DNA of 64,000 bases, from NCBI GenBank assembly GCA_002104905.1, contig MCFE01000484.1, positions 1 to 64,000 of the forward strand, given 5' to 3'. The position numbers and the translations under genes were made by a program. The notes under the pieces were generated by a model. That model saw nothing but the letters and a program-made list of their open reading frames with translations. It searched no databases and was not told where the DNA came from. Each line of letters starts with the position of its first letter. Positions within the stretch are counted from its first letter, which is position 1. Shown piece after piece: positions 1 to 57,048 of this stretch. Origin of the DNA: Basidiobolus meristosporus CBS 931.73. Lineage: Eukaryota > Basidiobolomycota > Basidiobolomycetes > Basidiobolales > Basidiobolaceae.

Positions 1-663
1 TTATATTTCATTGGCATTTTTGTATGTCAGAGTCTGTCTTACGTACATTTTGGGTGCGTAATAGCGTGTCATGGATTTAGTTTTATTTTAGCAGCACATG
101 GGCCAAGTTTATTCAATGAAGCATTTTATACCAAGAGTCTCTATAATCCAGAAGCCGAGAACTTTCCTTACAGTTGATCCCAAAGAGAATTGTTTCCAAC
201 ACTTGGCCAAATCCCCACTCTTTGCTTGGCCTAACCTGAATTTATTCAAAGTATTCGCATCACGTTCTGTAATTTCTACAATTTAATCATCATCGGTCTC
301 GCAGCGCTGCTCTACTCATCTAGCGTGTTTTACTCTGTTCCATCTGTATCGTTTATAAACTGTTGAAATTTCGGCTGCTTTGTATGTGTTCAGCAGATTG
401 AGCAGGTTTATTGATTTCTGATTCGTAGTGCATAATCCTATGTATGGGCGAGTGCATGTATTTTGAGTAAACATTTCTGGTTGAGAATATACTGCTTATT
501 TTATTATTTCTTGCATGCTGGGATCCTGTGAATTCGTTTCTATTCTTTGCGATCTCGCTCTGTATTGCTGGTGTATTGGTATTTGATGGGTATTAATGGG
601 TATTAATGGGTATTAAGGGTATTAAGGGTATGCATTTCTGTAGGATTACATAGATGTTTCACT
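1..663. other. AT-rich flank without a recognisable gene
   Basis: No reading frame here resembles a known family and no splice-linked exons were found. The only structure is the short tandem repeat near its right end, listed separately. It lies downstream of the minus-strand CAP gene and probably includes that gene's 3' untranslated region. Confidence 0.5.
585..631. repeat. short tandem repeat, unit GGGTATTAAT / GGGTATTAA
   Basis: About five head-to-tail units of GGGTATTAAT, the last ones shortened to GGGTATTAA, end 30-odd bases beyond the stop codon of the CAP gene. It is a simple microsatellite in the 3' flank; it is not a TTAGGG telomere array. Confidence 0.8.
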
Positions 664-1134
664 TCATTGCTTTCTTCCTACAAATTTCGGTGCCCTTTTG
701 CGCATCATCATAGGCCGGCCGAAGTCCTGAGTCCAGTAGCTCCCTTGTGGATCGTAGGCAATGCCAGTCTGGGTGAAGATGGGATCCAATATGTTGCGGC
801 GATGCTCTGGCGAGTTCATCCAGGCATTCATCACCGACACTGCATCCCCATACCCCGCTGCAACATTCTCCCCAATGTTGCTCCAGGGATAGCCTGTGGC
901 GCTGATTCTCTGGCCCAGAGTTGTGTTGGGCTCGTCATGAGTCATTTCATGCACGGTGGCCTGATACAGAGTGTGTCGTTCGGCAGCCAAGGTGAGTCTT
1001 GGGTCGATAGTGAGAGCTGGAGCGCCAACCAGGGCCCGTTGCTGATTCACGAGTGCGAGGAGTGTGTTCGGGTCAAAGGCGAGGGCTACCCCGGAGAATG
1101 TGAAGACAGTTGCGATCAGAGATAGAAGCTTCAT
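664..1134 (-). CDS. secreted CAP/SCP (YkwD-type) domain protein
   Basis: A 156-residue protein with a clear signal peptide (residues 1-19, hydrophobic, ending ALA) followed by one CAP domain. Visible family residues are His66, Glu89 in the IGENVA motif, and Glu110-His111 in the NSPEHR motif, which together form the usual CAP tetrad; YWTQDFG near residue 133 is the expected last strand. The compact form, lacking the C-terminal hinge, resembles bacterial YkwD-like proteins more than PR-1/Pry proteins. CAP proteins are secreted and in fungi may bind lipids; the activity here is not known. The gene has no intron. An AT-rich TATA-like run at about 1180-1190 lies roughly 50 nt before the ATG. The tail after residue 140 is basic (MMRKRAPK). 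A decayed paralogue lies just upstream. Confidence 0.88.
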   Translation of the reverse strand: MKLLSLIATVFTFSGVALAFDPNTLLALVNQQRALVGAPALTIDPRLTLAAERHTLYQATVHEMTHDEPNTTLGQRISATGYPWSNIGENVAAGYGDAVSVMNAWMNSPEHRRNILDPIFTQTGIAYDPQGSYWTQDFGRPMMMRKRAPKFVGRKQ

Positions 1135-1624
1135 TGCGGTAGAGTGCTGTATGGTTAGATATGGGGGAGGGGGCTCTGTGATATTTATATTTCATATGTC
1201 CTTGGGCTCTATGGTAACTTTACCAAGGAGTTGTTGGGATCGATTCCATCACGGAACTTACTCTCGGTCCAGACCTTTTGGCCCTGGAAGGTGAGGAACA
1301 TGGGAAAACCTCCTGGAATGATGAGAATGTTGAATCAGCACACTTAGCTCATGTCCTATAGTCGAAGGTGGATTAAAATGGGAATCTTTACGAGGGCTTT
1401 TCCATATCTGGCTGTTTCAGTTGTACACTCTTTCATTTGTTAGATCACTCCGAACCAATGGTATAGGAGTAATGTTGGGAAGTTAACAAGTGTCCCCTTT
1501 GGTACATCGTTATACCATTTAGAATATTCAGCACTCACATGGCTTTGTTTGAAATAAAGAGCCAAATATGCATCTACAGGCTGTAGTGCAGGAGCAACTG
1601 GATGTTGAACTTAGCTCTGATGGA

Positions 1625-1815
1625 ATAGTAGATATCAACATTCCCCCCGATGTCGCTCCTGGATCAGTTTGTTGCACTGAGCCTCTAGCCCAGTATTGTA
1701 TTGGGCTTATTATGTGGCATTTGGCGAATGTATAATCATCAATGTTGTTTACTTGCCAGTGAAGGGCCAATCTCTATGTAAACTGTCATTGCATTGATCA
1801 CAAGCACTGATCCAA
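1625..1815 (-). pseudogene. decayed second copy of the CAP gene
   Basis: The minus-strand DNA of about 1628-1755 aligns with about 861-990 of the CAP gene: the stretch ending in the GENVA block is recognisable (GGGGAGAATGTTG against GGGGGGAATGTTG), as is the block before it (CAACACAACTCTGGGCCAGAG against CAATACAATACTGGGCTAGAG). In the best 52-nt stretch about 38 positions match, and most mismatches are C/T or G/A. The reading frame is broken and the PEHR end is lost. It abuts the C-terminal end of the lysozyme pseudogene. Confidence 0.72.
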
Positions 1816-3000
1816 AGTCCGAATTCGGCTGCGGCTGAATTGTTGTTTCCTCGGTTGATGAACCTGCGTCTATCAGAATTGCAAAGCGCGCCACAGTACA
1901 TATTGAATGAAATTGGCACCAAGGCTGAGAATCACTTGGAGGTGATAGGCACCGAGATCAGACAGCTGACACATCTCTCAAACTCAACCATGTTTCTTCG
2001 AAGCAGATCTTCGCCTTGTGCAACACTGAGAGGAGGATGAATGTTGGCGCAACCAGTTGGGTCAGGGTGGCAGGCATACCCGTAGCCTACATTTTTGATG
2101 TCCACAGGGTCAATATAGAAATTGGGGAACCAGCCTTAAAAGCTCATCACTGAATCCAATCCTGCTTGGTTAATGTGCCCATTATTAAGCCCACCGTTTC
2201 CGCTGCCCTCGCCTTTGCACTTAGGGATCCCAGGCACATACTTACCGCCGGTCTCCACATATTTATTAAAGACCCAGTTGCCGTTGGTTAACTTGGCCGG
2301 TTCATTTGTTCCTTGGCACTCCATGGTCACTTTTCTCCATTACGGAGAGTTCCGATTTGGGGGTATCCAGTTCCCAGGCCTAAGCGGAAGCGTACACCAT
2401 TGTTGCTGATAGGAAAGGCGTTGTCACCGCTACTACCGCCATTATCGCATTTGGGTACTCCGGATACGAATTTGCTTCCAGACTCCGCATATTTGTCGAA
2501 TCCTCAGTTACCGCTGGTGAGTTTGTCCCAGACATTATACCCATTAACTGACTCCCCGGTTCCTTAACATTGGATGGTTACCCGGTCACCTTTTCTCAGG
2601 GTTCCTACTTGATAAAAGCTGGTTCCAGGACCTGATCGAACCCTCACGCCATCATCATTAATGTGGAAAGTGTTCCGGCCGTCACTTTTTCCGGTCTGGG
2701 AGCACTTGGGAATTCTGGCAACAAATTTGGTTCCAGTCTCTACATACTTATCGAAGACCCATTTACCATCTTAGAGCTTATCCCAATGTTTTATCCTCCA
2801 ATAGATTGACAAGCTTCTTGACATACAACGTCCACGTTACTTCCGGCTTACAATGATCCTACTACAGCATATTTGATTGCTGAGCCGACACGAGAATTCA
2901 CGCGATCATTAAGTGGGAAAGACTTGGCGGTTGCCGACGTAGCAGTGAGGAGTAGAGGAAGGATGACTCGACTCTCGCTGCGATGTTTAACGAATATTCT
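1816..3000 (-). pseudogene. decayed secreted 3xSH3b - GH24 (phage-type) lysozyme gene
   Basis: Reading the minus strand downward from about 2985: a signal-peptide-like segment (ILPLLLTATSATA), three tandem SH3b-like modules (about 2930-2690, 2690-2430, 2430-2210), each with NxxGVRxRxGxGTxY...GTLRxG and ending in KYxExGxKxVxxxPKC, then a GH24 domain (about 2180-1830) with NQAGLDSVMSF, IDPVDIKNVGYGY and GCANIHPPLS. GH24 enzymes cleave peptidoglycan glycan strands; SH3b modules bind cell walls. The frame is broken by several in-frame stops and at least two frameshifts (about 2335 and 2790). The codon at the expected catalytic Glu (GH24 pattern E-x8-D-x5-T) is TAA, followed at the right spacing by Asp, then Asn where Thr is usual. 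It is therefore dead. Confidence 0.8.
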
Positions 3001-3440
3001 CTTCAATATGGGTATTTGTACCTTCTCAAACGGAAATCGTAGCTGCTTTATCCGAAAATGTTGCAGCATTGGATCCTCATACTACTCAAGTCGGGTCACC
3101 AATTTGTGTTCTTGGGAAATGCGTACCAGGATTAGGGAATTCTAACCCTATGCAAATATCCGGAATACTGGTGAGTGGCACGGCATTTGATAACTGACAT
3201 TTCAGTTCCAGTAGGTATTTAACCGGGGTTACGCATGATTCTTTCGATACATTGTCTTTTTCTAGATACATTCAAGCTTATATACAACAGCCTGTTATAA
3301 AGCAAATGACATAATAAATGTATTGCATGCTGAATATTGCCGAAATGTGACACAAACTGCTATTTCAATCACTAAATAGTGTATATAAAGTCGAGCTTGG
3401 CGAAGACAGATCAGTACTTCAGTCGACCACTGCGTTCAAG
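3001..3440. promoter_or_regulatory. promoter region of the small cysteine-rich secreted protein gene
   Basis: No coding signal is seen. A TATA box (GTATATAAAG, about 3379-3388) lies some 50 nt before the likely first exon. That exon ends GTTCAAG at 3440, where a 5'-UTR intron begins. Confidence 0.55.
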
Positions 3441-3490
3441 GTACTGTTTGTTACCATTTTTCACAACTTCGCTACTAACTTGCGCTCTAG

Positions 3491-3712
3491 ATGAAATTCT
3501 CTCTCGTCAGTCTTTTTCTTGGTGTTTCTTTCCTTGCCGTTGCTCAAGCTGCCACCTGTCGCTGCTCTTACGGGGGTAGTGACTACACAAAGAGCTGCTG
3601 TGGCCCATCTGGTGGAAGCTACTCCAAGTCCAAATGCTCATTGAGCTCATCTAGCAAGGTCCAGAAGTTTGACAGATGTTGCCAAGGCTTTGGAGAATTT
3701 TCGGACTGTTAA
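3491..3712 (+). CDS. small cysteine-rich secreted protein
   Basis: A 73-residue protein with signal peptide MKFSLVSLFLGVSFLAVAQA and a mature part of about 53 residues with eight cysteines in the order CxC - CC - C - CC - C, rich in Ser, Gly and Lys. The pairing suggests four disulphides. The ATG follows directly after a 3' splice site: a 50-nt 5'-UTR intron runs 3441-3490 (GTACTG...CTACTAAC...CTCTAG) with a perfect TACTAAC branch site, and a TATA box lies at about 3379. The real promoter and splice signals make this short gene credible. I do not recognise the family; effector-like, antimicrobial or cell-wall roles are all possible. It sits between lytic-enzyme genes and pseudogenes. Confidence 0.75.
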   Translation: MKFSLVSLFLGVSFLAVAQAATCRCSYGGSDYTKSCCGPSGGSYSKSKCSLSSSSKVQKFDRCCQGFGEFSDC

Positions 3713-3715
3713 TTT

Positions 3716-6197
3716 CGATCATCCACTTTCTTCCAAAATAAAAAGTTACTAAAACGCTCGCACACACGAAATTCTGGAATAATGATTTTATCAAAAAGCA
3801 TACCACATATTGCTACCAACTTCAAGGCCAACGTATCGACTGCTACTGGATCAGTCGCTTTCAAGCAATCACAGGTGATAGGAAAATGTATTTGGCATGC
3901 AAAATAATTAGTCAATCACTAGACTTGAACTTCATTTTAATTGGCTGCCGCTATGAGTAAGTATCCGCTGATTATCTCAATGAAATATTGGTTCATGCAA
4001 TACTTTTGATGATTTTTTATAGGTAAGGACTTAAGACGTTTTTATCTAGTACGTTGAGGACACTTGATTTACTCTCTTATCATCCAGCATTGCGTTGAAT
4101 GCTGTTTACTAGTATTCATCCAATAACAACAAGCGAAGATTTTTCACCCGACCGCATACATATTTTGATAGAATAGCTTGAATATTATAGGTTTATTTCA
4201 ACCACCAGTTGCTCTGGTTCAACACTTCAGCCCAGAAGTATCATATCTACAACCCATGTCCAAGCGTCTAAACATGTGCCTAAGTCTTGGGATTGTTACA
4301 TTCAATACATCCAATACCTGAATCTATTCGCTGAGAATCGCAATTGCAATCGCGCAAGATAGTGAGCATTTCAGGCCAATGTCCAACTGAGAAAAATTAT
4401 GCGCATGTTACACATGTGATGTGAAGTTTTCTTACGCCGCCATTTTCATACTCAAACTGACACACCAAAGTAAGAATACTATCTTACCTCAATGCTGAGA
4501 ACTAAACGACTAGTGTCACGCATTCGGATTCAAAGGTGGCACAAAGCACTTGATATAGCGATGAAGAATGCAATGTCGGGTAGAAAATCCAGTGATTAAA
4601 ATAGCAGGTTACATCGAACAATAGATATACTTCTCTCCGTTTACTGATTGATGTGATACAAACATTTACCCGAGACTAATGGGCCAATCTTGTCAGGACT
4701 GGTTGGTTATCTTGAAATAACAATTTTACATGCATTCAAATAGATTCAAATTTTATTTCTTCAATCGTGTATTGTATTTGAACTTTTCCATGGACCAAAT
4801 GGTTGGAGCATAGCGGGCATCCTCTTTGTCATTAGTAAACGAGACCAGACCTATCATTGGGTGGATGGTTGCTTTTAGAATAGAATGTTTATTTTCGGCA
4901 ATGCTCCCGTGAGTACAGATAAAAAAGCCTGCAGATTTTTCACCCTTAGATACCAAATGGCCTTGCCACGGATCTTACTTGCATCGATGTTCTAGCCAAA
5001 GCCTCGCACGACAACATCATTACATTCCATGTCAGCAAACAAGTAACACCAGCCTCCGTATTTGTCAAATTACGACAAAGGCTTGCCTTCTTAACCACCC
5101 ATTTAACAAGGTTTTGAGAATGTCACACCCGATAATATCCGGCTGGATTCACTGAGTGCCCATTTCAGGGCCTATACAATCCACAGCAAACCCGTCAACT
5201 CCTTTCGCACACACGCCGTACCAAGAGTTGAGATTCGTTCAATTGCACATTATACCAATGGGCGCCGTGCAGATCTCCTACAACATTAGGGGATTTGGCT
5301 ACTGAGTGAAAATTATCCCACCTTTTCTCTTGGAAATTGGTGCATCTACAGTTTGATGTTGTTACGACTGAACTTTGAAGAATTATGTATATAGAATGTT
5401 CCCGCTCTTTACTCCTAGGAAAGGCATAAATTATGAGATGTAGTGCACTGTTCGTATGTCCTTCGGGACCATAGGATCTGTCAAGTTTGTCATTCCAACA
5501 ACCCTGCAAGGACAGTTTGTACATTCTAACCGCTTGACTACTATTTACCAATTGAAACTAAAATGGAGTTTAACCCTAAGCGTCATTCCTCAACATCTCT
5601 ATCGCGTGTGCATGACTTGTGAATAGCTGCTACCAGACACTCTTATTACATAAGATTCCACAACAATGTGAACGCTGCTTGTCCCAGTATTGATAGAGGA
5701 CTCAATGCCAAGTACCATGTTGGTAATACAAGCACAACAGAGTAAACCAAACAGAAACAAGCTTGGCTAACTATTCTTACAGAATCAATATTGCCTTGTC
5801 TCTGTTTAACTAAAATTCAGAACTTTGTCCGTGGTGATAGTATGAAGTATTGAAGTAAAACATGGGATAGCCATCAAAGACACCAACGAACCTCAGATAA
5901 TTTGTATAATCTTTTTTCTCATTCGTACAATGGTTAAAAATATCTTCAAAAACTTTTTCGTCATCAGTGAAGATTCGGCAACCGACGGTCATATCCATGA
6001 AGATCTTACTGTCCTTACAGTCATGAAGTTACAAACATGCTTTAGCATGTAAGCCACCACTGAGTGAACAATATGGCGATGTCGAATAGTACAGCTATCA
6101 AGCGTAGAATATTCTTTGGATCGAAGAAACCAAAATACCTCTCCACGCTCAAAATTCTGTAGATCACTAAAGATGAACACATGTAACAGAAATACAT
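3716..6197. other. 2.5 kb AT-rich region, no gene assigned
   Basis: Only broken, short minus-strand frames are present (for example 4753-4956, 5195-5551 and 5810-5998). Minus-strand translations of 4750-5550 look protein-like across stops and frame changes, so a decayed gene is possible, but I cannot name a family. No clean splice-linked model was found. Confidence 0.4.
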
Positions 6198-6481
6198 TGC
6201 CTAAATATGGCAATGGTCGACCCATGACACTATCTAGAAATAGAGTGCCGATCCACGACAAGATGACTTCTCCGTATATGGTAGGATCCTTGAAATCCCT
6301 CTCGATCTGAGAAGGTGAGCCAGATCCAAGTTGATTGGATTGAAAGTTGTGGAAGTCCCCTACCCAAGATTCCTTCACTTGTCGAGGATAGCGATCGAAT
6401 CCCAATCGCCATTTGGTTCGGCCACAGACTCTAGGCCTGAAATGGTAAGAGAGTTTGAATCCTTTGTAAATTGGTCTGCCC

Positions 6482-6517
6482 TTCCTCGGTTTTCCTCAGC
6501 TTTCCTCGGCTATATAT
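6482..6517 (+). promoter_or_regulatory. CHAP gene promoter: TTCCTCRG triplet and TATA box
   Basis: Three near-identical TTCCTCGG/TTCCTCAG units stand in a row just before TATATATTA (about 6510-6517), which is some 55 nt before the start codon. The same arrangement occurs at 8502-8537 in the duplicate. Confidence 0.55.
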
Positions 6518-6570
6518 TACGAGCCTCATGCCAAGGATCCAGCATCTTCATAACAGCTCAACAATCCAGT

Positions 6571-7116
6571 ATGGTCAAGATCTCTTCTATCTTTGCTGGT
6601 GTCACTGTCGCTGCTGCTGGCCTTTTGGGCCTGGCTGTCCAGGCACTCCCTGCCTCAACCACGCCCAGCACTACCCCAAGTCAGACTAGCACTACAGAGG
6701 TGTCTGGACCCCATGTCAAGCTAGCCGCTCTGTCTGAGCTCGACAACGCCTGCTCACTACAGTTCCGCTTCGATAACGGTCAGTGCACAGACTGGGCTGA
6801 TGCCCGCTACTACCAACTTACTTGCCACCACACTCAGTGGTGGGGGAATGCCAAGACTTGGCCCGCAAGTGCTCGCAACACCGATGGCTGGGTTGTCTCC
6901 AACGAGCCACGAGTCCCCTCCATCATCGCCATCCAGCCTGGATACCAAGGGTGTGACTCCTATGGCCACGTCGCAGTCGTCGAGAGCATCAACGATGATG
7001 GAAGTGTTTACACCAGCAACTGGAACTACATTGAGAATGGACGCGGCGGTCCCTACATCACCACATACGTCAACTTCTGGCCCGGAGAAGGGGTCTCCTT
7101 CATCTGGTATGAATAG
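6571..7116 (+). CDS. secreted CHAP-domain amidase/peptidase, copy 1
   Basis: A 181-residue protein. Residues 1-26 form a signal peptide, 28-48 a Ser/Thr/Pro linker, and 60-181 a CHAP domain. The catalytic Cys72 (NGQCTDWA) and His133 (SYGHVAVVE) are in their usual contexts, with Asn150 (TSNWNY) as the likely third residue. CHAP enzymes cut peptide bonds or the amide link in bacterial peptidoglycan. Extra cysteines (61, 85, 128) would suit a disulphide-stabilised secreted form. The start was placed at 6571 rather than an in-frame ATG at 6331 because it begins the signal peptide and follows the TATA box at proper distance. There is no intron, which fits acquisition from bacteria (inference). Confidence 0.9.
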   Translation: MVKISSIFAGVTVAAAGLLGLAVQALPASTTPSTTPSQTSTTEVSGPHVKLAALSELDNACSLQFRFDNGQCTDWADARYYQLTCHHTQWWGNAKTWPASARNTDGWVVSNEPRVPSIIAIQPGYQGCDSYGHVAVVESINDDGSVYTSNWNYIENGRGGPYITTYVNFWPGEGVSFIWYE

Positions 7117-7249
7117 GAGAGATACCCAACAATGGAATATACCATTCAGCAATGCCGGCATATACCCAACAGAGTATTTACCCAGTAGTGTCATCAATTC
7201 CCCGATAAATAAATACTAAAATAGTAAAGTAATACGTTTTGCCAGTGTG

Positions 7250-8217
7250 TTGTCAAAAAATGACTGCCTACATGATTACAGGCATCCAATAAGCAATTTC
7301 ACTAGAATTTGAGATTGAATGGTATGCTATCTGCAGCAGTGGGAAACGATAGGGGTAACCGTGATCTAGCATAACTGTTTGAGTGAAAGGGTGAGGTACT
7401 TGAAGGTAGGTAGGTAGATAGTGATCTACTTCTCTGCCAATCATGGTCAATAATCGTGGTGATGCGGAAGGGATAAGCGTAATTTATCAGGAATGCCGGT
7501 GTTCCATACCATTTGGTTCTGGTCTACACACGTTGAAAAGATATTCTGTTTAGAATCCAACTTGGCTATGCCTGCTTTGATCCTTTTTTGATGGTCATAT
7601 CACTCAGCAGCATGCGTTATGGTTTTAAACGTCAAAAGAATCGAGGTGGCAATGAGTGACTAGAGAAGTGTTCCCTCATCACTCATCAATCTATTGAGCT
7701 GATATTTTTCGTACTCTTCACTGAGGATTAATTGATTACGCCTTGACTTGGTGCGAACATCAACGTACGTATATGCTAACCACAAAATAAGTCACGACTT
7801 CATAATAATTTTCCCGTTTGAAGCTTACTTGTGTCGCTATTTTTGAACACTTCACCACTATGGGTAAGAGATAGTGATCGAAAGGCTCCGTCTTCGAATT
7901 CCACTCGGATGAAATGAACCACTTCTAATCTGTCAGTCATCATTCTCATAGCCTGATAGTAAGCCTGAGCTACCAATGAGAACTCCATACCCGAATTGCA
8001 TAGGGCTTTGGAGCCTCTATATTCATAGTCTAGACCTGAACCCAAGTTCCACAATGTAAGCTATTCGACTTGTTGAAATGCAGCTCTCAACAAGTATGAG
8101 GCTTGAGTAGTCTTCTATCAAGAATAGCAAGGACTGTGAGCTGCTTGGTGTGGGTGAGGGGAAAGGATGTTCCTTAATCGGAAGTACATATCTAGGTATG
8201 TACTATCTTGACTTCCG
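7250..8217. other. spacer between the two CHAP duplicates
   Basis: This 968-bp stretch is not part of the duplicated unit. The only sizeable frame is minus-strand 7800-8054 (84 codons), which resembles nothing I recognise and has no flanking splice signals that extend it. It may be a gene fragment or chance. Confidence 0.4.
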
Positions 8218-9269
8218 TGCCTAAATATGGCAATGGTCAACCCATGACACTATCTAGAAATAGAGTGCCGATCTACGACAAGATGACTTCTCCGTATATG
8301 GTAGGATCCTTGAAATCCCTCTCGATCTGAGAAGGTGAGCCAGATCCAAGTTGATTGGATTGAAAGTTGTGGAAGTCCCCTACCCAAGATTCCTTCACTT
8401 GTCGAGGATAGCGATCGAATCCCAATCGCCATTCGGTTCGGCCACAGACTCTAGGCCTGAAATGGTAAGAGAGTTTGAATCCTTTGTAAATTGGTCTGCC
8501 CTTCCTCGGTTTTCCTCAGCTTTCCTCGGCTATATATTACGAGCCTCATGCCAAGGATCCAGCATCTTCATAACAGCTCAACAATCCAGTATGGTCAAGA
8601 TCTCTTCTATCTTTGCTGGTGTCACTGTCGCTGCTGCTGGCCTTTTGGGCCTGGCTGTCCAGGCACTCCCTGCCTCAACCACGCCCAGCACTACCCCAAG
8701 TCAGACTAGCACTACAGAGGTGTCTGGACCCCATGTCAAGCTAGCCGCTCTGTCTGAGCTCGACAACGCCTGCTCACTACAGTTCCGCTTCGATAACGGT
8801 CAGTGCACAGACTGGGCTGATGCCCGCTACTACCAACTTACTTGCCACCACACTCAGTGGTGGGGGAATGCCAAGACTTGGCCCGCAAGTGCTCGCAACA
8901 CCGATGGCTGGGTTGTCTCCAACGAGCCACGAGTCCCCTCCATCATCGCCATCCAGCCTGGATACCAAGGGTGTGACTCCTATGGCCATGTCGCAGTCGT
9001 CGAGAGTATCAACGATGATGGAAGTGTTTACACCAGCAACTGGAACTACATTGAGAATGGACGCGGCGGTCCCTACATCACCACATACGTCAACTTCTGG
9101 CCCGGAGAAGGGGTCTCCTTCATCTGGTATGAATAGGAGAGATACCCAACAATGAAATATACCATTCAGCAATGCCGGCATATACCCAACAGAGTATTTA
9201 CCCAGTAGTGTCATCAATTCCCCGATAAATAAATACTAAAATAGCAAAGTAATACGTTTTGCCAGTGTG
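8218..9269 (+). repeat. direct duplication, copy 2 (1,052 bp)
   Basis: Second copy of 6198-7249. The seven differences from copy 1 are all C/T or G/A changes, and about three of them are at CpG sites in one copy. Both ends are sharp: TGCCTAAATATGG on the left and GCCAGTGTG on the right. Confidence 0.95.
8591..9136 (+). CDS. secreted CHAP-domain amidase/peptidase, copy 2
   Basis: Encodes a 181-residue protein identical to copy 1; the two coding differences (at positions equivalent to 6967 and 6987) are synonymous. Signal peptide, Ser/Thr linker and catalytic Cys72/His133/Asn150 are unchanged. Its promoter triplet and TATA box came along in the duplication, so it should be expressed the same way, raising dosage. 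Confidence 0.9.
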   Translation: MVKISSIFAGVTVAAAGLLGLAVQALPASTTPSTTPSQTSTTEVSGPHVKLAALSELDNACSLQFRFDNGQCTDWADARYYQLTCHHTQWWGNAKTWPASARNTDGWVVSNEPRVPSIIAIQPGYQGCDSYGHVAVVESINDDGSVYTSNWNYIENGRGGPYITTYVNFWPGEGVSFIWYE

Positions 9270-28389: not shown

Positions 28390-29290
28390 ATTTGGAGAAG
28401 GTTCGTCGCCTCACCTCCACCTCCCCTTCCCCTTGACGAGCGAGTGGCGTCCCCCCTTTTCACCCTCACCGACCATACATCCCATTGCATCTTTCTTCAT
28501 AACTTCCCATGTCTTTGGTACCTTCGATTTGATCATTAAAACACTCTTGTTATGATGTATTCCAGAACTGGACTGGTTGTCGTTGGTGGAGCGAATGCCA
28601 GGCAGCACGGTTTACCTGGCTGTTGCCAGGAAAGCGAAGCGAAGGAAGGGAATTGGAATGGAATGGAATGGAATAGAGAACAAGGGAGGGATTTTGCGGC
28701 TGGAGATGTACGATGTGTTCCGGATCGGGGAATGGGCCAACCCACCTCTCCGTCCCACGCCGGATCCATTTTCAGATGGTAACACTGTTGGTCGGTTTCA
28801 TATCGTGCCATTGGGTTTCTCTTCCGCCTGCTCTTCCTGGATGCTATCTCCGCTGAGGTCGTCTTACCTCCGTCCCAAGCCCCAAGATATTGATCAATTC
28901 ATCTCCCATCCGGACGGCCAATCTTAACTCGCTTTCATTTCCCCACAGTGTGGTCGGTAGGTCACGTGACCAGGGGGATCCCATCGACCCGAGTAGTCAT
29001 AGTATCCCAGGACACAAGGTCCAGGCTTTAGTGTATCTCACGAGGTCACGGCTGATTGGAGGTTATGGGGTAACAGAAGCGGACGAACATTAGACTAGAG
29101 GATACCCAGCAAGCCCATCTCCATGTGACACCGTGGGGTGACCTTAAAATCTTGGTCGGACACCGGTTTGGAATCGACCAGGGAAACGCTTTAAAACGGG
29201 GTTGGGGGATGGAGGGGACTCGATATCGCCATTCACTTGGTCAGCCTGGAGGGTCGGAAATCCTCCTCCTCCCCGGAATCACCGCCTCCC
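28390..29290. other. 0.9 kb intergenic region with a GGAAT tract
   Basis: A few GGAAT/GGAATGGAAT units at about 28650-28675 are a microsatellite. Frames across it (for example 28577-28927) translate the repeat and have no family resemblance. The rest should be the MRPS16 terminator and the globin promoter; TTTAAAACG at about 29190 is a weak TATA-like element. Confidence 0.45.
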
Positions 29291-29824
29291 ATGGAACTTT
29301 GCGGTAAAGATGGCCTGAAGCCGGACTCGACCGGGCATGAGCAACGCCCACGGATCAAATCCTTCGCCAGTCTACAGAGCGCCGACCTACCGGTCTCGGC
29401 GGACGATGAGCCGCTGCTCGAGACCCTAGGGGAGCATCGGGTGGAACAGATGGTGGAACTCTTCTACAACTACAACCTCAGGGATGAGGTCACCCGTGGC
29501 TTCTTCCAAGGGGTGAACATCGAGAGGTTGCAGCGGATGCAGACCCGCTTCCTGGTCCACATCCTGGGCGGCCACCCGATGAACACCGGAAAGATGCGTT
29601 CCGCGCACAAACGCTTGCTGGACCTCGGGGACGTCCATTTCGACGCCTTCCTCGCCAACATCCATCGCGCCTGTCACGAGCTGAAGTTCGCCCCCAAGGT
29701 GACCCACCGGATCATGACCTCCGCCGAGGCCACCCGGGCCGACGTCCTCGGCAAGAACCCCTACCTGAAGTTGAAAAGCTCCCGGCAATGCCTCAAAGAT
29801 CACGAATCCACCGTGTCCCGTTGA
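29291..29824 (+). CDS. truncated (2/2) haemoglobin, group I-like
   Basis: A 177-residue intronless coding region. Residues 1-38 are a charged, probably disordered extension. Residues 39-158 carry a 2/2 globin: TLGEHRVEQMVELFYNYNL (Phe58-Tyr59 at B9-B10), GFFQGVNIERLQRMQTRFL, GG turn near 94, and MRSAHKRLLDLGDVHFDAF with His106 as the likely haem-binding proximal His. Group I truncated globins bind O2 and often detoxify NO. The haem-pocket residues needed are present. GC content is higher than in neighbouring genes and there is no intron, so transfer from bacteria or an old intron loss are both possible. The ATG at 29291 is the first in frame. Confidence 0.85.
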   Translation: MELCGKDGLKPDSTGHEQRPRIKSFASLQSADLPVSADDEPLLETLGEHRVEQMVELFYNYNLRDEVTRGFFQGVNIERLQRMQTRFLVHILGGHPMNTGKMRSAHKRLLDLGDVHFDAFLANIHRACHELKFAPKVTHRIMTSAEATRADVLGKNPYLKLKSSRQCLKDHESTVSR

Positions 29825-40536: not shown

Positions 40537-43500
40537 ATGACTTATACCAGCAAACAGAACAACACAAACATCTTCCCTGTAAAGGAGAGGTTTAATGAAA
40601 AGAACTACAGACTTTGGAGAATCAAGATGCAGATCCACCTTGAGGAAAGGAAGCTTTGGAATGTAGTAACAGGAAAAGAAGTTGAGCCCAAAGGAACAGC
40701 AGAAGAAGTGGGGAAGTTTCAAGAGAAGGAGAGAAAGGCCTTTAATGCCATATGTATCAATGTGCAAGATTCCTTCATTGGACAAATCCATGCCTCAAAT
40801 ACTGCCAAAGCAGCATGGGAATCCTTAGAGAAGATCTTTAGGGCAAAGTCAGTATCAAGCAAGCTTTATTTGAAACAAAAGTTCTTCAACATGAGGAAGA
40901 AGCCAGATGATGACATGCTACAACTTATTACCAAAATGAAGACACTTGCAGAATAACTTTACAGTATTAATACTGGTGTAGATGATGAAGAAAAGATACT
41001 CTGTCTGCTTTGCAGCCTACCAGACAAGTATGAGCCACTCATACTTTCTTTTGAAAGCAGAGAAGACAACTTGACTTTAGACTATGTCAAAGGAAGACTT
41101 CTCCATGAAGAACTCAGACGTAATTATCAAGCAGAGAAAATGAAGATAATGCTTTATTCAGTCCAGAAAGGCACTCAGAAAAGAAGGAAAAACAACAAAA
41201 CCAAAGAAAACCTGGTTGCAGCATCTATTGTAAAAAGCCAGGACACTGGGCAAGAGAATGCAAGAAGTAACAAGCAGACAAAAAACAGAAACTAGAGCAG
41301 GCCAGCCATATAACTACTGATGAACAGTTATTTGTAACCGTACAAGAGAGTGCAAGTAACCAAAGTAATGAATGGTATATTGACTCTGGAGTTTCACAGC
41401 ATATTTATGGTATAAAGGAGTGGTTCAGCAACTCAAAAACTATTCCAGTAAGAAAGGTTTATCTGTGAGATAACTCTGCTCTGGAAGCTACAGCAAGTGG
41501 GTCTATACAACTATATATGAGCAATAGCTCAGGGGCAACTACAGCAAGACTCACTGACATACTTTATGTACCTGGAATAGCTAAGAACTTACTCTCAGTC
41601 AGTAAAGCAACTGCTCAGGGACTGGAATTTGTTTTTACTAAGATGAGCTGCTCAATATTGAGTGAGAATGGACAAAAATTAGCTTTGGGAATCAGAGATC
41701 ACAATACACACAAGTTACAATGCAAGATCATTGTACCTGAGTATGTCAACATTGCTGAAACTGATGAAACTAACTGGGAGATGTGGCATAGGAGGCTAGG
41801 ACACATTGGGGAACAGAAAATGAGCCAATTGGTGAAAAATCAGCTTGTTTTGGGCCTAGAATACTCAATTCCAATCAAATCAAATGTTTGTAAGGGATGT
41901 TCATATGGCAAACAAGCTAGGCAACATTTCAAGAGCTCAGAAGGCATCAATACCACCAAGATATTGTCTATTGTACACTCAGACATATGTGGCCCCATGA
42001 GAACACTGTCCTCTGGAGCCAGGAGATACTCTATGACGTCTATTGATGCCAAAACAAGATATACATGGGTGTACTGCCTCAAAACAAAGGATGAAGCTTT
42101 AGAGACGTTTAAGCACTTCAAGAACATGGCAGAAATACAAACTGGGTGTAAATTGAAGGTACTACAAAGTGACAATGGAGGAGAATACAGCTCAAAGGAG
42201 TTTGCAAAATACTGCTTGTCTACTGGTATACTTCAACAGACCACTGTTCCTCATACTCCACAGCAAAATGGAGTAGCAGAACGTGCAAATAGAGCAATAG
42301 TAGAGATGGGAAGATCTATGCTACATGATAAGGGAATGGACTACAAGTTTTGGGCTGAATCTGTTGCTACCACTGTATACATCAAGAACAGATGCCCAAC
42401 AACAGCACTACGTGATTCTACACCCTTTGAAGCATATACAAGCAAAAAACCAGATCTCCAGCACCTCAAGATCTTGGGCAGTGATGTTTTTGATCACATC
42501 CGCAACAAAAAAAAAAAAAAAAACGCCAAAAGTTGGAAGCAAAGAGTAGGAAAGGGATCTTTCTTGGGTATTGTGAAGATACTAAAGGGTATAGAGTATA
42601 TGATGGCAAAATTCACAAGCTGATCAAGAGCAGGGACATTGTATTTGAGGAGAATTCAGATCAGAAAGCCACAGATATTATTGGCCAGCTGCCGGATGAT
42701 GCAATCAACACTAATGAAGAAGATACATACCAAATCCAGACAGATACAGAAGATACTTCTACCAGTTCCAGATCAGAATAGATTATCCCAGTTAGGAGAT
42801 CTACCAGAATAAGAAATCCTCCTGGATCCTGGTGGCAGACATCTAATGATCATGAAGAAGCTTATCTTGCCTTACGTGCCAAACCTCAGAATCTGGAACA
42901 GGCAATGCAAAGTCCAGATGCTACTAGGTGGCAACAAGCAATGCAGGAGGAGTACCAATCACTGATCAAGGCAAAAATGTGGGAACTGGTAGATTTACTA
43001 AATGGGACAAAGCCAATAGGATGTAGATGGGTCTACAAGATCAAGATAGCCTCAAATAGTGCTGTTGATAGGTACAAGGCTAGATTGGTGGCTAAAGGCT
43101 ATTTCCAGATCCAGCAACTAGACTTTAAGGAAACATTTACTCCGGTTGCCAAGTTTAACTCCATTAGAGCAGTTCTAGCCCTGGCAGCTGTACACAGTCT
43201 AGATCTACACCAAATGGACATCAAAACAGCCTTTCTAAATGGGGATTTGCAAGAAAACACATATATGGAGCAACCAGAGGCTTTACCAATCAAAAAGTAC
43301 CCCATAAGGTGTGCAAACTTAGAAAATCATTGTAAGGGCTTAAGCAGGCACCTAGAGCATGGTATAACAAGATTGACACATATTTAGAGGAAATTGGGTT
43401 CTCTTGTAGCACTGCATATCACAGTATATATGTGAAACAGCTCAAAAAGGGTGTGATCATCCTAGTTCTTTATGTGGACAACCTAATTATAGCTTCAAGT

Positions 43501-44463
43501 GACCAAGAGGTACTTATACAGACAAAATCAGATCTCTTCAGCAAGTTTGAGATGAAAGATCTTGGAAAATTGAGCTATTGTCTTGGAATTGAGGTCAAAT
43601 TTGACATACCTACTCAGAAAATTATGCTGCATCAGTCTAAGTACATCAGGGACACTCTTAGATGCTTCAAAATGGAAAATTGCAAACCTGCAGCTATTGC
43701 TATGGACAATAACCTGAAATTAAGCAAATCTCAGCCAGTTATAGATGAAAACGGCTCAAATATGGACCAAAACTTTCCCTATCAATCAGTGGTGGGTAGC
43801 CTAATGTACTTGATGGTGTCTACACGTCCTGATATTACAGTGGCAGCTGGAATAGTCAGTCAATTCATGCAGAATTATGGATCAGATCAAATTGCAGCAG
43901 TTAAGCGGATTTTCAGATATCTACAAGGTACCATAAATATGGTACTGGAATACTCTGGAGCAGCTAATAGGCAAAAATCTGATGGTTATAGTGATGCAGA
44001 TTGGGGTAGGGATCTGATAGAGAGATGCTCTACCACAGCCTAGGTATTTCTTTATGCTGGTGCTGCTATTACTAGCAATTGCAAGAAACAACCAACTGTG
44101 GCCCTATCTACAACTGAAGCCAAATATATGGCTGCATGTCAAGCATCTGAGGAGGCTGTATGGCTACAGAAATTATTCAAAGACTTGGGCTTTAATTCAG
44201 ATGAACCAACATGTATTTATAAGCATAATCAAAGTTGTATTTCATTAGCTAGAAATCCTACTAATCATGCCAGAACTAAGCACATTGATATACAGCATCA
44301 CTTTGGGAGGGAAGCTGTAGAAAATAACTTAGTAGAGTTAGTGTACTGCCCAACTAGCAAAATGGTGGCAGATATATTGACAAAACCACTAGCTAGGCCA
44401 CAATTTGAGAATCTCAGAGAGGAATTAGGATCAAGATATTATTTAGTTGAGGGGGAGTGTTGA
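40537..44463 (+). pseudogene. Copia-1 gag-pol pseudogene
   Basis: About 85-90% similar by eye to the intact Copia-2 protein. Fragments are gag 40537-40956, spacer 41071-41295, GAG-pre/integrase 41517-42520, 42533-42781, RT 42905-43387 and 43432-44043, RNase H 44098-44463. Stops and frameshifts separate them. Integrase keeps HSDICGP, QSDNGGEY and the NGVAERAN Glu, but RT reads YVDN instead of YVDD, and the gag zinc knuckle is destroyed by a frameshift. A run of 18 A at about 42507-42524 stands where Copia-2 has six. Confidence 0.9.
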
Positions 44464-48731: not shown

Positions 48732-50030
48732 CTAAAGCTGAGAGGGTTCTCCTGAATCTCTTTTCTTGTAATACCAATATCTTGATGGTTCAGTATTGTC
48801 AGCAAGTCTTGCAAGCTTGAGTCTGTCTCTATGAACTAAATCTTCCCAGATATTCCCTTGTTTATCCACTAGTTGGTACGCTGCAAATGGACATTTTCTG
48901 ATGATCTTGATTGGTCCTGTCCATTGTGGCTCAAACTTCTTCCAAGTGTTGTTTCTTAACAATACAAAGTTCCCAACTGTCAATGCTTCTGGTGCTATAG
49001 TCTTATCAAATCTCTGCTTCATCTTTTCTGCACTTTGAGATACTTTGGCCTGTGCCTCTTGTCATCTTCCTTCCAATTGCTGGTGTCTACTGGGCTGATT
49101 AAGTTCATCTTCTAAGGCATCTGTGAGCTTGGGTTGTGTGAGATCTCCTGGAACCCTTGGTTCACATCCATACACTAAGTAAAATGGTGATTGTTGGGTA
49201 GTGTTGTGCACTCTAACTCTGCAGGCAAAAAGTGCTTGATCTTTATACGCATCCCATCTACTGACAGCTCCATTTGCATACTTGGTCAGCATTTTTCCAA
49301 ATAATCCATTAAAGCATTCAGTGATTCCATTAGTTCTGGGGTGATATGCCAAGGTTTTCAAGTGTTTAATCTGCTGCATTTCCAGGTAAGCCTCTAATGT
49401 CTTTGCCATGAAGTTTGCTCCTCTATCAGATAAGATCTCCACAGGGCATCCAAACTTCATCAGGATCTCATGGTAAATGAAACTTGCAACTTCTTGTTCA
49501 CCGGCTATTGGTACAGCTTTAGCAACTGGCCATTTAGTGGCATGATCAATTGCTACTATGATCCAACAATTGCATTTCCTGGTGGTTGGCAGTCTTCTAA
49601 TAGAGTCAATTCCCCATCTCTCAAATGGACTTACAGGCTCCAAAGGGAAGAGCTTGGCAATTCTTTGTGGCTGGCCTTGATTGATTTGGCAGTTTTGGCA
49701 TGTTTTCACTAGCTTCTCAATATCTTGTTTCATTCTGGGCCACCATGCTCTGGCTTTCACAAGGCTATAGGTTCCTTTAATTCCAAGATGTCCATATCCA
49801 TTGTGTAGCTTATGTATTAAATCCAGGCAAGCAACATAAGGACAATAGGCAATAGGGCTTCCATCAACAATTTGGTAGAGTGTTTCATCCTGTACAACAA
49901 ATTTGCTGGCTTCATCCCGGATTATCTTCTTTATCTCTTCATCCACCTTGTTAGGAATGGCTTGGTCCTCCAAGTATTGTGGTAATAAGCTAGGCCAATC
50001 TGATTCATGCACCAAGTTGAGTTGTGCCAC
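48732..50030 (-). pseudogene. Gypsy-1 integrase region
   Basis: Frame 50030-49062 holds the HHCC zinc finger (HNGYGHLG...CQNCQ) and the catalytic D-D-E: WGIDSIR, ILSDRGANF and NGITECFNG. Frame 49022-48732 is the C-terminal DNA-binding part (FVLLRNNTWKKFEPQWTGPI). A stop separates the two (about 49060), and another stop (TAA, replacing CAA found in Gypsy-2) separates integrase from RNase H. The integrase core itself is intact. Confidence 0.88.
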
Positions 50031-50388
50031 TTATTCTAGTCTTGATAAGGCATCAGCAACCGTGTTGTTTTTCCCAGGGCAGTAGACAATCTCCAAGTCA
50101 AATTGCTGGATGTATTCACTCCATCTTGTCATTCTTCTAGAGAGTACCTTCTGAGTAAATTTATACTTGAGGGAGGCATGATCAGACTTTACAGTGCATT
50201 TGACTCCTTCAATATAGCATCTCCATGTCTTCAGGCAGTGTATTATAGCAAGCATCTCCTTCTCATGCAGAGTATAGTTTTGTTCTGCTAAGTTCAGTAT
50301 CTTGGACTCAAAGGCAAATGGATAGTCCTTTCCCTTGTGTTCTTGGCTTAGTACTCTACCAATTGCATAATCTGGAGCATCTGTGCAC
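50031..50388 (-). pseudogene. Gypsy-1 RNase H region
   Basis: Contains DAPDYAIGRVLSQEH, YTLHEKEMLAIIHCLKTWR, VKSDHASLKY and NTVADALSRLE, the Gypsy RNase H pattern. Its start is cut off by the solo LTR insertion at 50389. Confidence 0.88.
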
Positions 50389-50757
50389 TGTTGCAATTTA
50401 AGAAGTGATTTGGATATAAGGAACTTATCAAGAAATAGTGATAATAGTTGAACTGTTGTTTATTCATAAAGAAGCTCAGTATTTATACCTTTGTAGAAGT
50501 ATTACAGCTGCAACACTAAGTAGGGAGGGTTTCTCAATATTCAGGAGCATTCTGTAACAGTTTCAGGGTTAGTACATAATGTGTGGTAATAGTGCTAATT
50601 TGATCCTGACTATAGGGGAATAATCATAAGATCATATATCTGGAGAAGGTGGCGAAGTTAGGGCAGTAAATGAGTCCTACAGTGATTAAGACTAGCCTAG
50701 AATTGTTAAGTAAATTTTTAGCTGCTGAATGATACCAAATAGTCCAATATTTCAACA
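50389..50757 (-). mobile_element. solo Copia LTR (TSD TGCAC)
   Basis: 369 bp, same family as the Copia-2 LTRs and same orientation, flanked on both sides by TGCAC (50384-50388 and 50758-50762). It interrupts the RT-RNase H junction of Gypsy-1. A solo LTR arises when two LTRs of one copy recombine and remove the body. Confidence 0.93.
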
Positions 50758-50857
50758 TGCACAGGGTAAACTCTTTTCTGAAGTCAGGTATTCTTAAGCT
50801 TGGCAGCTTAGCTAGTTCATTCCTGAGCGTCTGAAATGCAGTCTCACAGGCTATGTC

Positions 50858-52217
50858 TCACCTGTAAGTGTTGTCTTTCTTGAGGGTATCAGTTAAAGGG
50901 GCTGCAATGCTTGCAAAGGACTTGACAGATCTCCAATAATAGGATGCCATTCCAAGGAATGATCTGAGTTCTGATATGCTATGGGGCTGCTTCAAGTTCT
51001 TGATAACTTCAACCTTCTCAGGGTCTAAGGTCATTCCTGTGCTAGTCACTATGTGTCCCAGATATTCAATGTTTTCCTTGAAGAATTCACACTTGGCTAG
51101 CTTCCCATATAGCTTGTTCTCTCTTAGTTTCTTCAAGACCTTTTCAATGTGCACTACGTGATCCTCTTCTGTCTTGGTGTGTATCAATATGTCATCCAGA
51201 TAGATTATCACAAACTTGTCTAAGTACTCCTGAAAGACAGTCTGCATCAGCACATGAATGTTGCAGGGGTATTAGTGAGGGCAAAACTCATGACCAAGTA
51301 CTTGTAATGTCCATATCTGGTCCTGAATGCTGTCTTAGGGATATTGTCTGGTTTCACCCTAATCTGGTTGTATCCTGACATGAGGTCAATCTTGCTGAAA
51401 ATAGTGGCTCAATTAAGTTGGTCCAAAAGTACATCATTCCAAGGTATGGGGTACATATTCTTGGCGGTAACTGAGTTCAGGGCTCTGTAGTCAATGCACA
51501 TCCTAAGTGTTCCATCCTTCTTTTTCACAAAAAGCACTGGCGCTCCGCAGGGTGACTTGCTGGGCCTGATGTATCCTTGCTCCAATAGCTGATCGATTTG
51601 TCTCTTCATTTCCTCCAATTCCAATGGACTCATTCTGTAAGGTGTCTTGCTTACTGGAGGGCTATCTCCTGTGTCAATGGCATGATCCATGTCTCTGACT
51701 GGTGGTAGGCTTACAAGCTCATCTGGAAACACATCTGAATATTTCTTAAAGAGAGTCTGGACCTGCTGAGGTGCTGGGGTAGAGAAATCCTCCTGTAATA
51801 CCACCGTGAGGAACATATGAGTACCTTTTTTAAGTGCTCTACAGAACTGGGTCTTGCTAAGCTCACTTGTCTCACACATACTGGAATTGACCAAGTTGAA
51901 ATCCAGCCTGGCAGGTGATAGCTCATAGGTTTTGTTATCCTTTTGGATCTGAGAAACATGGGTTCTCCAGTTGATTGATGGATTACAACAAAACAGCCAG
52001 GTTTTTCCAAGTACAAGGTCAAACTTGCAGTTCCCAAATATATAAGCCTGTAGGTCTTCTTCATAGTCATTGATCTTCATTCTTACTGGCTGAGTAATAC
52101 GGTTGATTATGTGAGAGTTCCCATCAGCTGTGGAGACTGAAGTTGATTTGGTAGGTTCCAAGTTGATTCCAGCTTTCAGAGCAAATTGCTCTGACATGTA
52201 CTCATGTAATGCTCCTG
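50858..52217 (-). pseudogene. Gypsy-1 protease and reverse transcriptase region
   Basis: Frame 52197-51409 covers the protease body ([17 protein letters not shown]) and RT fingers ([39 protein letters not shown]). Frame 51253-50858 has the catalytic FVIIYLDDILI and ELRSFLGMASYY. A TGA replaces the Gly of LNGATIF at about 51407. At the protease active site (about 52222) one extra T breaks the frame just before the Asp-Ser-Gly codons, so this copy cannot make a full polyprotein. Confidence 0.88.
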
Positions 52218-52219
52218 AG

Positions 52220-52730
52220 TCAAATCATGATCTTGGCAGGTACTCCATTGATTACTCCATTCAAGCATAATAGCTTTCCTGAATTTGAGGTCATCTGGGA
52301 TAGGTATTCTTCTGCCATGTGGAAGGTGAGTTCTGAGTCTTCTTCAAGTTCATCCTCAATGTTACTATGCTCCATGGCCTCAATGCGGTTAAAGGTTCTT
52401 GATGGGTGGTGTCCATTTCTTCTCTGAGGGCAGTACTTTGGATTATGTCCTTGCTGGTGCCAATTGAAGCAATGTCCTTTCTTCCTGCATTCTTCTGAGG
52501 TGGGGTTATTCTGCATAGCATCTATTTCCATTGGTACTGCTTCTGACTGTCTTCTTTCATAAGGATTGTAGCCTTTTGGATTAGTCACTGTAGGCTTCCC
52601 AACTCCAAACATAGCTGAGTCATAGTCAATGGCAATCTTGATGGCTTCTTCAATAGTCTGAGGTCTTTGATAATTCACTTCCTTGCAAGTTCTTTCTTTC
52701 AACCCAACAATAAAGTATTCAACTTGATCC
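52220..52730 (-). pseudogene. Gypsy-1 gag, C-terminal part
   Basis: Continues the gag frame that begins at 57932 and is interrupted by Copia-2. It holds DQVEYFIVGLKERT, then the nucleocapsid knuckle, which reads CFNWHQQGHNPKYC: the second Cys of the CX2CX4HX4C motif has become Trp. Confidence 0.85.
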
Positions 52731-53100
52731 TGTTGCAATTTAAGAAGTGATTTGGATATAAGGAACTTATCAAGAAATAGTGATAATAGTTGAACTGTTG
52801 TTTATTCATAAAGAAGCTCAGTATTTATACCTTTGTAGAAGTAATACAGCTGCAACACTAAGTAGGGAGGGTTTCTCAATATTCAGGAGCATTCTGTAAC
52901 AGTTTCAGGGTTAGTACATAATGTTTGGGTAATAGTGCTAATTTGATCCTGACTATAGGGGAATAGTCATAAGATCATATATCTGGAGAAAGTGGCAAAG
53001 TTAAGGCAGTAAGTGAGTCCTACAGTGACTAAGACTAGCCTAGAATTGTTAAGTAAATTTTTAGCTGCTGAATGATACCAAATAGTCCAATATTTCAACA
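52731..53100 (-). repeat. Copia-2 3' LTR
   Basis: 370 bp; on the coding strand begins TGTTGAAATATTGG and ends TTGCAACA. The gag-pol stop codon lies at its first bases. Confidence 0.93.
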
Positions 53101-57012: not shown

Positions 57013-57048
57013 CTTTAGAATAGATTAAGGCAATCAGGGCTCATAACC

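Follow-up and report, generated by a model that had tools for sequence, protein, structure and literature searches.

The stretch of DNA analysed here, called the window throughout, comprises positions 1 to 64,000 of contig MCFE01000484.1 (C740 in the contig labels used below) from the 89-Mb assembly of the fungus Basidiobolus meristosporus CBS 931.73. Near its start, two genes encoding a CHAP-domain protein lie side by side, in the company of a muramidase gene, a CAP gene and a gene for a small peptide. An earlier reading, made from the letters of the window and referred to as the sequence-only reading, had regarded these genes as a cluster of bacterial-type cell-wall hydrolases, acquired from bacteria and used against them. 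The two CHAP copies it described are confirmed by domain matches and by a tandem duplication that includes their flanks (Table 1), and their coding regions differ by two synonymous and no nonsynonymous changes. The signal peptides that it assigned to the genes of the locus are likewise judged by eye here.

The CHAP proteins of Basidiobolus

The window CHAP protein scores 61.9 bits against the CHAP profile (PF05257), for which the curated cut-off is 26, and consists of a signal peptide (judged by eye), a Ser/Thr-rich linker and a CHAP domain with residues C72, H133 and N152. CHAP enzymes are recognised by a catalytic cysteine and histidine together with a third polar residue, and this triad is present here. 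The reading frames of the window CHAP genes and of the CAP gene run without interruption, in agreement with the earlier statement that the live enzyme genes lack introns. In the AlphaFold model of the CHAP protein, 109 of the 181 residues reach a predicted local distance difference test (pLDDT) score of at least 90, and the model is confident from about residue 70. A Foldseek search gave 20 matches at E <= 0.001, all of them CHAP and related lysin proteins, including LysK and the solved CHAP domains of a staphylococcal amidase, of phage proteins and of PcsB, and the papain-like CHAP fold is thereby recognised.

The pair belongs to a large family. The B. meristosporus CBS 931.73 genome holds 54 CHAP matches on 20 contigs, at 22 loci when matches are merged at 15 kb, and 13 of these loci carry two or more. 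Near-full-domain matches account for 45 of the 54 (E <= 4.3e-13); since the other nine are partial or weak, two of the 54 contain a stop codon and some may be alleles, 54 is a number of matches and not a gene count. Copies are also carried by a second species, B. ranarum. Of other wall hydrolase families, the B. meristosporus genome shows one GH25 match and two Amidase_2 pieces, which lie on the same contig and barely exceed the cut-off, and no NlpC/P60 match was found in this genome.

Selection was assessed on the CHAP domain only, in 38 genes from the window and from fetched regions; CHAP matches on contigs C631, C306, C113, C419, C868, C568, C626 and C166 lie outside this set. Among the 58 of 703 pairs with a synonymous divergence (dS) of 0.1-1.2, the median ratio of nonsynonymous to synonymous divergence (dN/dS) is 0.0455 and none exceeds 1, the remaining pairs being mostly saturated or near-identical at synonymous sites. 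The family is thus under strong, long-term purifying selection. In 79 fungal rows the triad is conserved, C72 being found in 76, H133 in 77 and N152 in 78, the three rows without C72 having gaps there because they are incomplete.

Two paralogues, at C557:1462-2016 and C631:8330-8893, possess an additional cysteine-rich N-terminal domain. This piece obtained no Pfam name above the cut-off, and its two matches in the genome lie directly upstream of the CHAP matches on these two contigs; it is possibly a new binding domain.

Origin of the CHAP genes

A protein search yielded 55 matches among 281 candidates. Of these, 37 were from Basidiobolus (B. meristosporus and B. ranarum), followed by 15 bacterial-type or unnamed proteins (49-59% identity), including one named Thermogemmatispora, and then by three weak matches at 31-38%. 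The best five bacterial matches, again with one named Thermogemmatispora, are 56-59% identical to the query across 63-64% of its length. Of 7,995 candidates scored in a profile search 638 matched, and among the best 120 of these 638 the named non-fungal proteins ranking beside the fungal ones are Thermogemmatispora, Ktedonobacteraceae, Chloroflexota and Dictyobacter; CHAP proteins of staphylococci and the like rank below these. Other eukaryotes are named neither among the 55 matches from 281 candidates nor among the best 120 of 638, the reach of a word-based search being limited. In a genome collection of 84,980 species, 52 stretches fitted the search patterns and 37 were relatives, at 34 distinct loci. 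All 34 confirmed loci (36-57% identity) are by their titles from Ktedonobacteria, to which class we take their genera to belong; this count is partly biased and is no unbiased census, because the alignment behind the patterns already held Ktedonobacteria-type rows.

The large tree is a quick one of 213 rows, of which 79 are fungal, 58 form a 'metagenome' group that includes rows named Thermogemmatispora, Ktedonobacteraceae, Dictyobacter and Chloroflexota, and 28 are from other bacteria. It omits domain matches of fewer than 90 profile positions and the loci L001-L023, which overlap fetched regions, and its fungal rows count some genes twice, once as an NCBI protein and once as a fetched locus. 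In this tree the 79 fungal rows form one clade (support 99) within a group of Ktedonobacteria and metagenome rows (91). The final careful tree, with 62 identity-thinned rows and 112 columns (P0054, P0055, P0107 and P0124 being left out), likewise places the 16 Basidiobolus rows in one clade (100/99) and, with support of 100/100, separates the fungal and Ktedonobacteria-type rows from eight rows of other bacteria. A clade of Ktedonobacteria-type rows without the fungi was not rejected (approximately unbiased test, p-AU 0.244), and nested and sister positions of the fungal clade are not distinguished. Other bacteria are thinly represented in both trees, the named ones being staphylococcal and streptococcal kin. 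The clades and splits therefore support one origin from the Ktedonobacteria lineage, and not an exact branch within it.

The nearest relatives of the fungal CHAP proteins are thus those of Ktedonobacteria (Chloroflexota), set apart from thinly sampled other bacteria. Since the CHAP domain is widespread in bacteria, the direction of transfer would be from bacterium to fungus, and the family likely entered Basidiobolus once, from a bacterium of the Ktedonobacteria lineage. The earlier claim that the locus was acquired from bacteria is accordingly supported for the CHAP genes and not for the locus as a unit. In the 213-row tree, eleven smallest mixed clades contain both Basidiobolus species (support 87-100), so growth of the family had likely started by the time B. 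meristosporus and B. ranarum diverged; expansion likely proceeded through local tandem duplication, partly preceding that split. Furthermore, C85 and C128 occur jointly in 43 of the 79 fungal rows, 41 of these 43 having a further cysteine near position 61, and a cysteine at 85 or 128 is found in none of the 106 Ktedonobacteria and metagenome rows. The large subclade that includes the window copies therefore likely gained these cysteines after the transfer.

Two other sources for the genes were considered. CHAP domains are common in phage lysins, and derivation from such a lysin could be imagined; however, the best of seven phage records reaches 40.0% identity over 60% of the query (range 34.5-40.0%) and relatives on viral contigs reach 28-46% (best 80 of 87), against up to 59% over 64% for bacteria. 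On these identities a phage-lysin origin is highly improbable and was rejected. Contamination, by which bacterial DNA would have been fused to a fungal contig, was named by the sequence-only reading as what would overturn it, and a bacterial-type domain in an uninterrupted frame is what it would produce. However, the CHAP matches are spread over 20 contigs and present in a second species, they form one fungal clade separate from every bacterial row, they have been under long-term selection, and the same contig carries retroelement frames that look eukaryotic by eye. The probability of contamination is therefore negligible and it was rejected.

Transfer into this genome has precedent. Tabima et al. 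list 806 candidate transferred genes in CBS 931.73, with intron numbers differing from those of fungal genes, and the portions of their paper available to us name Proteobacteria, Firmicutes and Actinobacteria as main donors, among which the Ktedonobacteria lineage is absent; a table assigns one nonribosomal peptide synthetase (NRPS)-like gene to GNS bacteria (PMC7466969). CHAP, lysozyme, Chloroflexi and Ktedonobacter do not occur in its main text as available, the candidates themselves being listed in supplements, where the CHAP genes may be included. The accessible part of a survey of transfers in 44 early-diverging fungi does not mention CHAP, lysozyme or peptidoglycan (PMC11291939). Among open-licence papers, no report on a Basidiobolus CHAP family and none linking Basidiobolus with Ktedonobacter was found.

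Predicted function of the CHAP proteins

Ktedonobacteria CHAP proteins such as that of Thermogemmatispora resemble the fungal ones in their active-site residues and in occurring as side-by-side copies at several loci. At several loci among L044-L077 (e.g. L057, L064 and L069) at least two CHAP genes lie within about 5 kb, and the donor lineage therefore has expansions of its own. Unlike the fungal copies, the Ktedonobacteria proteins are longer, have a long N-terminal part and lack C85 and C128. Most comprise about 270-370 residues, and their N-terminal part contains a hydrophobic stretch that by eye looks like a membrane anchor. Because of this anchored-looking part, the donor proteins were likely the bacterium's own wall-remodelling enzymes. 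The fungal versions retain the CHAP domain and carry a different N-terminus, in which a signal peptide followed by a linker of low complexity is seen by eye.

Peptidoglycan cutting is an established activity of CHAP relatives. This activity, the hydrophobic N-terminus seen by eye, the strong selection and the copy number make secreted peptidoglycan hydrolases used against bacteria, as the sequence-only reading had supposed, the likeliest function of the family, be it in competition or for food. Export is suggested by the hydrophobic N-terminus. Outside the fungal cell the Cys-His pair together with the Asn would then cleave amide bonds within the peptide portion of the peptidoglycan, the targets being competing or food bacteria. 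Taken as a whole, we consider it fairly probable that the CHAP genes constitute a Basidiobolus family derived from one capture in the Ktedonobacteria lineage, and that its products, as predicted, leave the cell and cleave the peptidoglycan of bacteria. A more detailed history, in which Basidiobolus trimmed a captured wall-remodelling enzyme, added an export signal and built from it dozens of secreted bacteria-killing enzymes, has about an even chance of being right.

Besides the bias in the genome count, the thin sampling of other bacteria and the unsettled position of the fungal clade, a number of observations weigh against this reading. The AlphaFold model is unreliable over roughly its first 46 residues, and the TM-scores of the 20 Foldseek matches, calculated by query length, are modest (0.39-0.54). 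A catalytic residue is missing in P0024 of B. ranarum and in two damaged copies on contig C454, and two of the genomic matches contain the stop codons mentioned above. The extra cysteines number three, an odd count that is at variance with simple disulphide pairing. In the first careful tree, of 60 rows, the fungal clade took in P0055, a LysM-CHAP row on a very long branch.

One may also ask what the enzymes are for. Feeding, in which the secreted enzymes would digest bacteria, dead or alive, as a supply of nitrogen and carbon and not in defence, is a possible though not the favoured explanation. It is consistent with secreted-looking proteins in numerous copies under strong purifying selection and with a gut habitat described as rich in bacteria in the part of PMC10964425 at hand, but the same chemistry serves competition too, and this explanation overlaps with the antibacterial one. 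Fungi have no peptidoglycan, and the CHAP fold occurs also in glutathionylspermidine amidase (weak Foldseek matches, E 1e-2), such that the enzymes might instead have been turned to a fungal or host substrate, for example an amide bond of the fungal wall itself, of the spore coat or of gut mucus. This is unlikely, since the domain remains close to bacterial enzymes, at the identities of the five best matches given above, and the proteins that it matches best in structure are hydrolases of peptidoglycan and lysins of phages.

Some other eukaryotes are already known to have captured wall hydrolases from bacteria. The oomycete Saprolegnia parasitica is described in the available sections of PMC3681718 as having a secreted CHAP family of suspected bacterial origin, duplicated to seven genes, compared with the 54 matches in B. 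meristosporus; unlike Basidiobolus it is not a fungus, the origin is left blank in the table of that paper, and the likeness is drawn from description. Trichomonas vaginalis likewise is a eukaryote with laterally acquired bacterial peptidoglycan hydrolases, but these are NlpC/P60 enzymes according to the portion of PMC6299479 consulted, a type without a match in B. meristosporus. If the more detailed history given above is right, the Basidiobolus family would parallel, in a fungus, the antibacterial enzymes that animals and protists have captured. Ktedonobacteria are soil-dwelling and mycelium-forming, and that history would point to the soil phase, and not the gut alone, as a source of Basidiobolus weapons. 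A single capture that expanded into dozens of strongly conserved copies would offer a clean and testable case of a fungus assembling antibacterial enzymes.

Neighbouring genes and the proposed cluster

Table 1. Positions of the genes, remnants and duplicated segments discussed, numbered within the window.
Feature	Positions	Strand	Evidence
CHAP gene copy 1, 181 aa	6571..7116	+	Pfam CHAP E 8.4e-17, alignment, residue conservation, AlphaFold model
CHAP gene copy 2, protein identical to copy 1	8591..9136	+	Pfam CHAP E 8.4e-17
Tandem unit 1: CHAP gene plus flanks	6198..7249	+	1,052 bp, 99.3% vs 8218-9269
Tandem unit 2: CHAP gene plus flanks	8218..9269	+	1,052 bp, 99.3% vs 6198-7249
Dead 3xSH3b-GH24 muramidase gene	~1773..2967	-	collinear with open gene on C417
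73-aa secreted-looking orphan peptide, 8 cysteines, open	3491..3712	+	4 genome copies, one B. ranarum relative
Third small secreted-type block gene, remnant	4965..5057	-	open only on C408
Duplicated block (SH3b-GH24, peptide, third gene)	1810..5275	.	collinear with C417, partly with C408
CAP-domain gene, 156 aa, cysteine-free, YkwD-like	664..1134	-	E 3.3e-19
Second CAP gene, remnant	1625..1801	-	one 62-residue match with stops, E 4e-7

The muramidase gene was correctly seen as dead by the sequence-only reading: it runs through three reading frames, with seven stops along its main match to a 444-aa relative on contig C417. That relative is open and holds three SH3b domains plus GH24 in one frame, an arrangement that stops and frame breaks have destroyed in the window copy. 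Its protein matches PDB 8b2s, a GH24 muramidase, over residues 206-439 (E 1.1e-47), an entry that presumably belongs to the study of the Trichophaea saccata muramidase. This fungal enzyme, too, combines an SH3-like domain with GH24 in the part of PMC10394673 seen, unlike the Basidiobolus gene with its three SH3b domains and its dead window copy. By this PDB match and this paper, SH3b-GH24 is a known fungal muramidase layout, and GH24 lysozymes appear as a known family in the accessible portion of a survey of early-diverging fungi (PMC8778642). The CAP domain is not specific to peptidoglycan.

Window positions 598-6695 recur on contig C312 at 98.4% identity, the dead gene, CAP and peptide included, and C312 therefore represents either another haplotype or a recent duplication of the window locus. 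Because the dead gene is repeated there, its lesions are not likely to be assembly errors.

The small disulphide-rich peptide of the sequence-only reading is encoded by an open gene whose copies are under purifying selection. It has four copies in the genome, the C312 repeat included, and one relative outside it, in B. ranarum; no Pfam or NCBIfam match was found, and its structure model is poor (pLDDT 55.5) and was not used. The gene is open in the window, at C417:127327-127545 and at C408:88939-89157, with the mature part nearly unchanged. Among these three copies dN/dS is 0.09-0.12, and the aligned flanks are about 75% identical. The other members of the block fared differently. The lysozyme end is decayed (by eye) on C408, where no GH24 match was found, and the third gene is open on C408, its C417 match having two stops. 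The peptide is the only gene that stays open in all three block copies; selection preserved it while its neighbours died differentially, and the birth and death of members suggested earlier is supported.

Of the CAP pair, the gene itself is well supported, its match to the YkwD model falling below the curated cut-off. The dead sister is less secure: it rests on the one interrupted match of Table 1, and this remnant matches paralogues down to E 7e-8. The genome contains 27 CAP matches at 21 loci (C384, C701, C1246, C732 and others), and in eight paralogue frames inspected at seven loci the CAP domain is by eye cysteine-free, as in the window copy.

The proposal of an antibacterial cluster, in which CHAP, SH3b-GH24, CAP and the peptide would have been acquired or put together jointly and would act jointly, draws on their occurrence within 9 kb. 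GH24, or its remnant, is also linked to the peptide at three places through duplication of the block, and such a meeting is uncommon by chance, with 0.12 CAP and 0.04 GH24 loci expected near CHAP loci. Nevertheless, only one of the 22 CHAP loci, that of the window, has a GH24 or CAP match at a distance of 10 kb or less, and this arrangement has no repeat elsewhere. No CHAP or CAP match was found within 10 kb of the block copies on C417 and C408, no linkage of the same genes recurs at a further independent locus, GH24 and the peptide recurring solely as the duplicated block, and both GH24 and the CAP sister are dead in the window. A single unrepeated meeting, though uncommon by chance, therefore does not make a functional unit, and the cluster, now very unlikely, was rejected on linkage. 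The GH24, CAP and peptide genes are likely separate elements beside the CHAP genes, accidental neighbours and not partners.

Elsewhere in the window, positions 40132-64000 are dense in retroelement-like repeats. By eye, Copia-type frames are seen at 41469-44043 and, with 372-bp repeats on either side, as one open frame of 1,309 aa at 53095-57024; a different type of element has frames at 49062-52801. A frame at 29195-29821 (+) matches Bac_globin (PF01152, E 5.4e-8) and is possibly a further bacterial-type gene.

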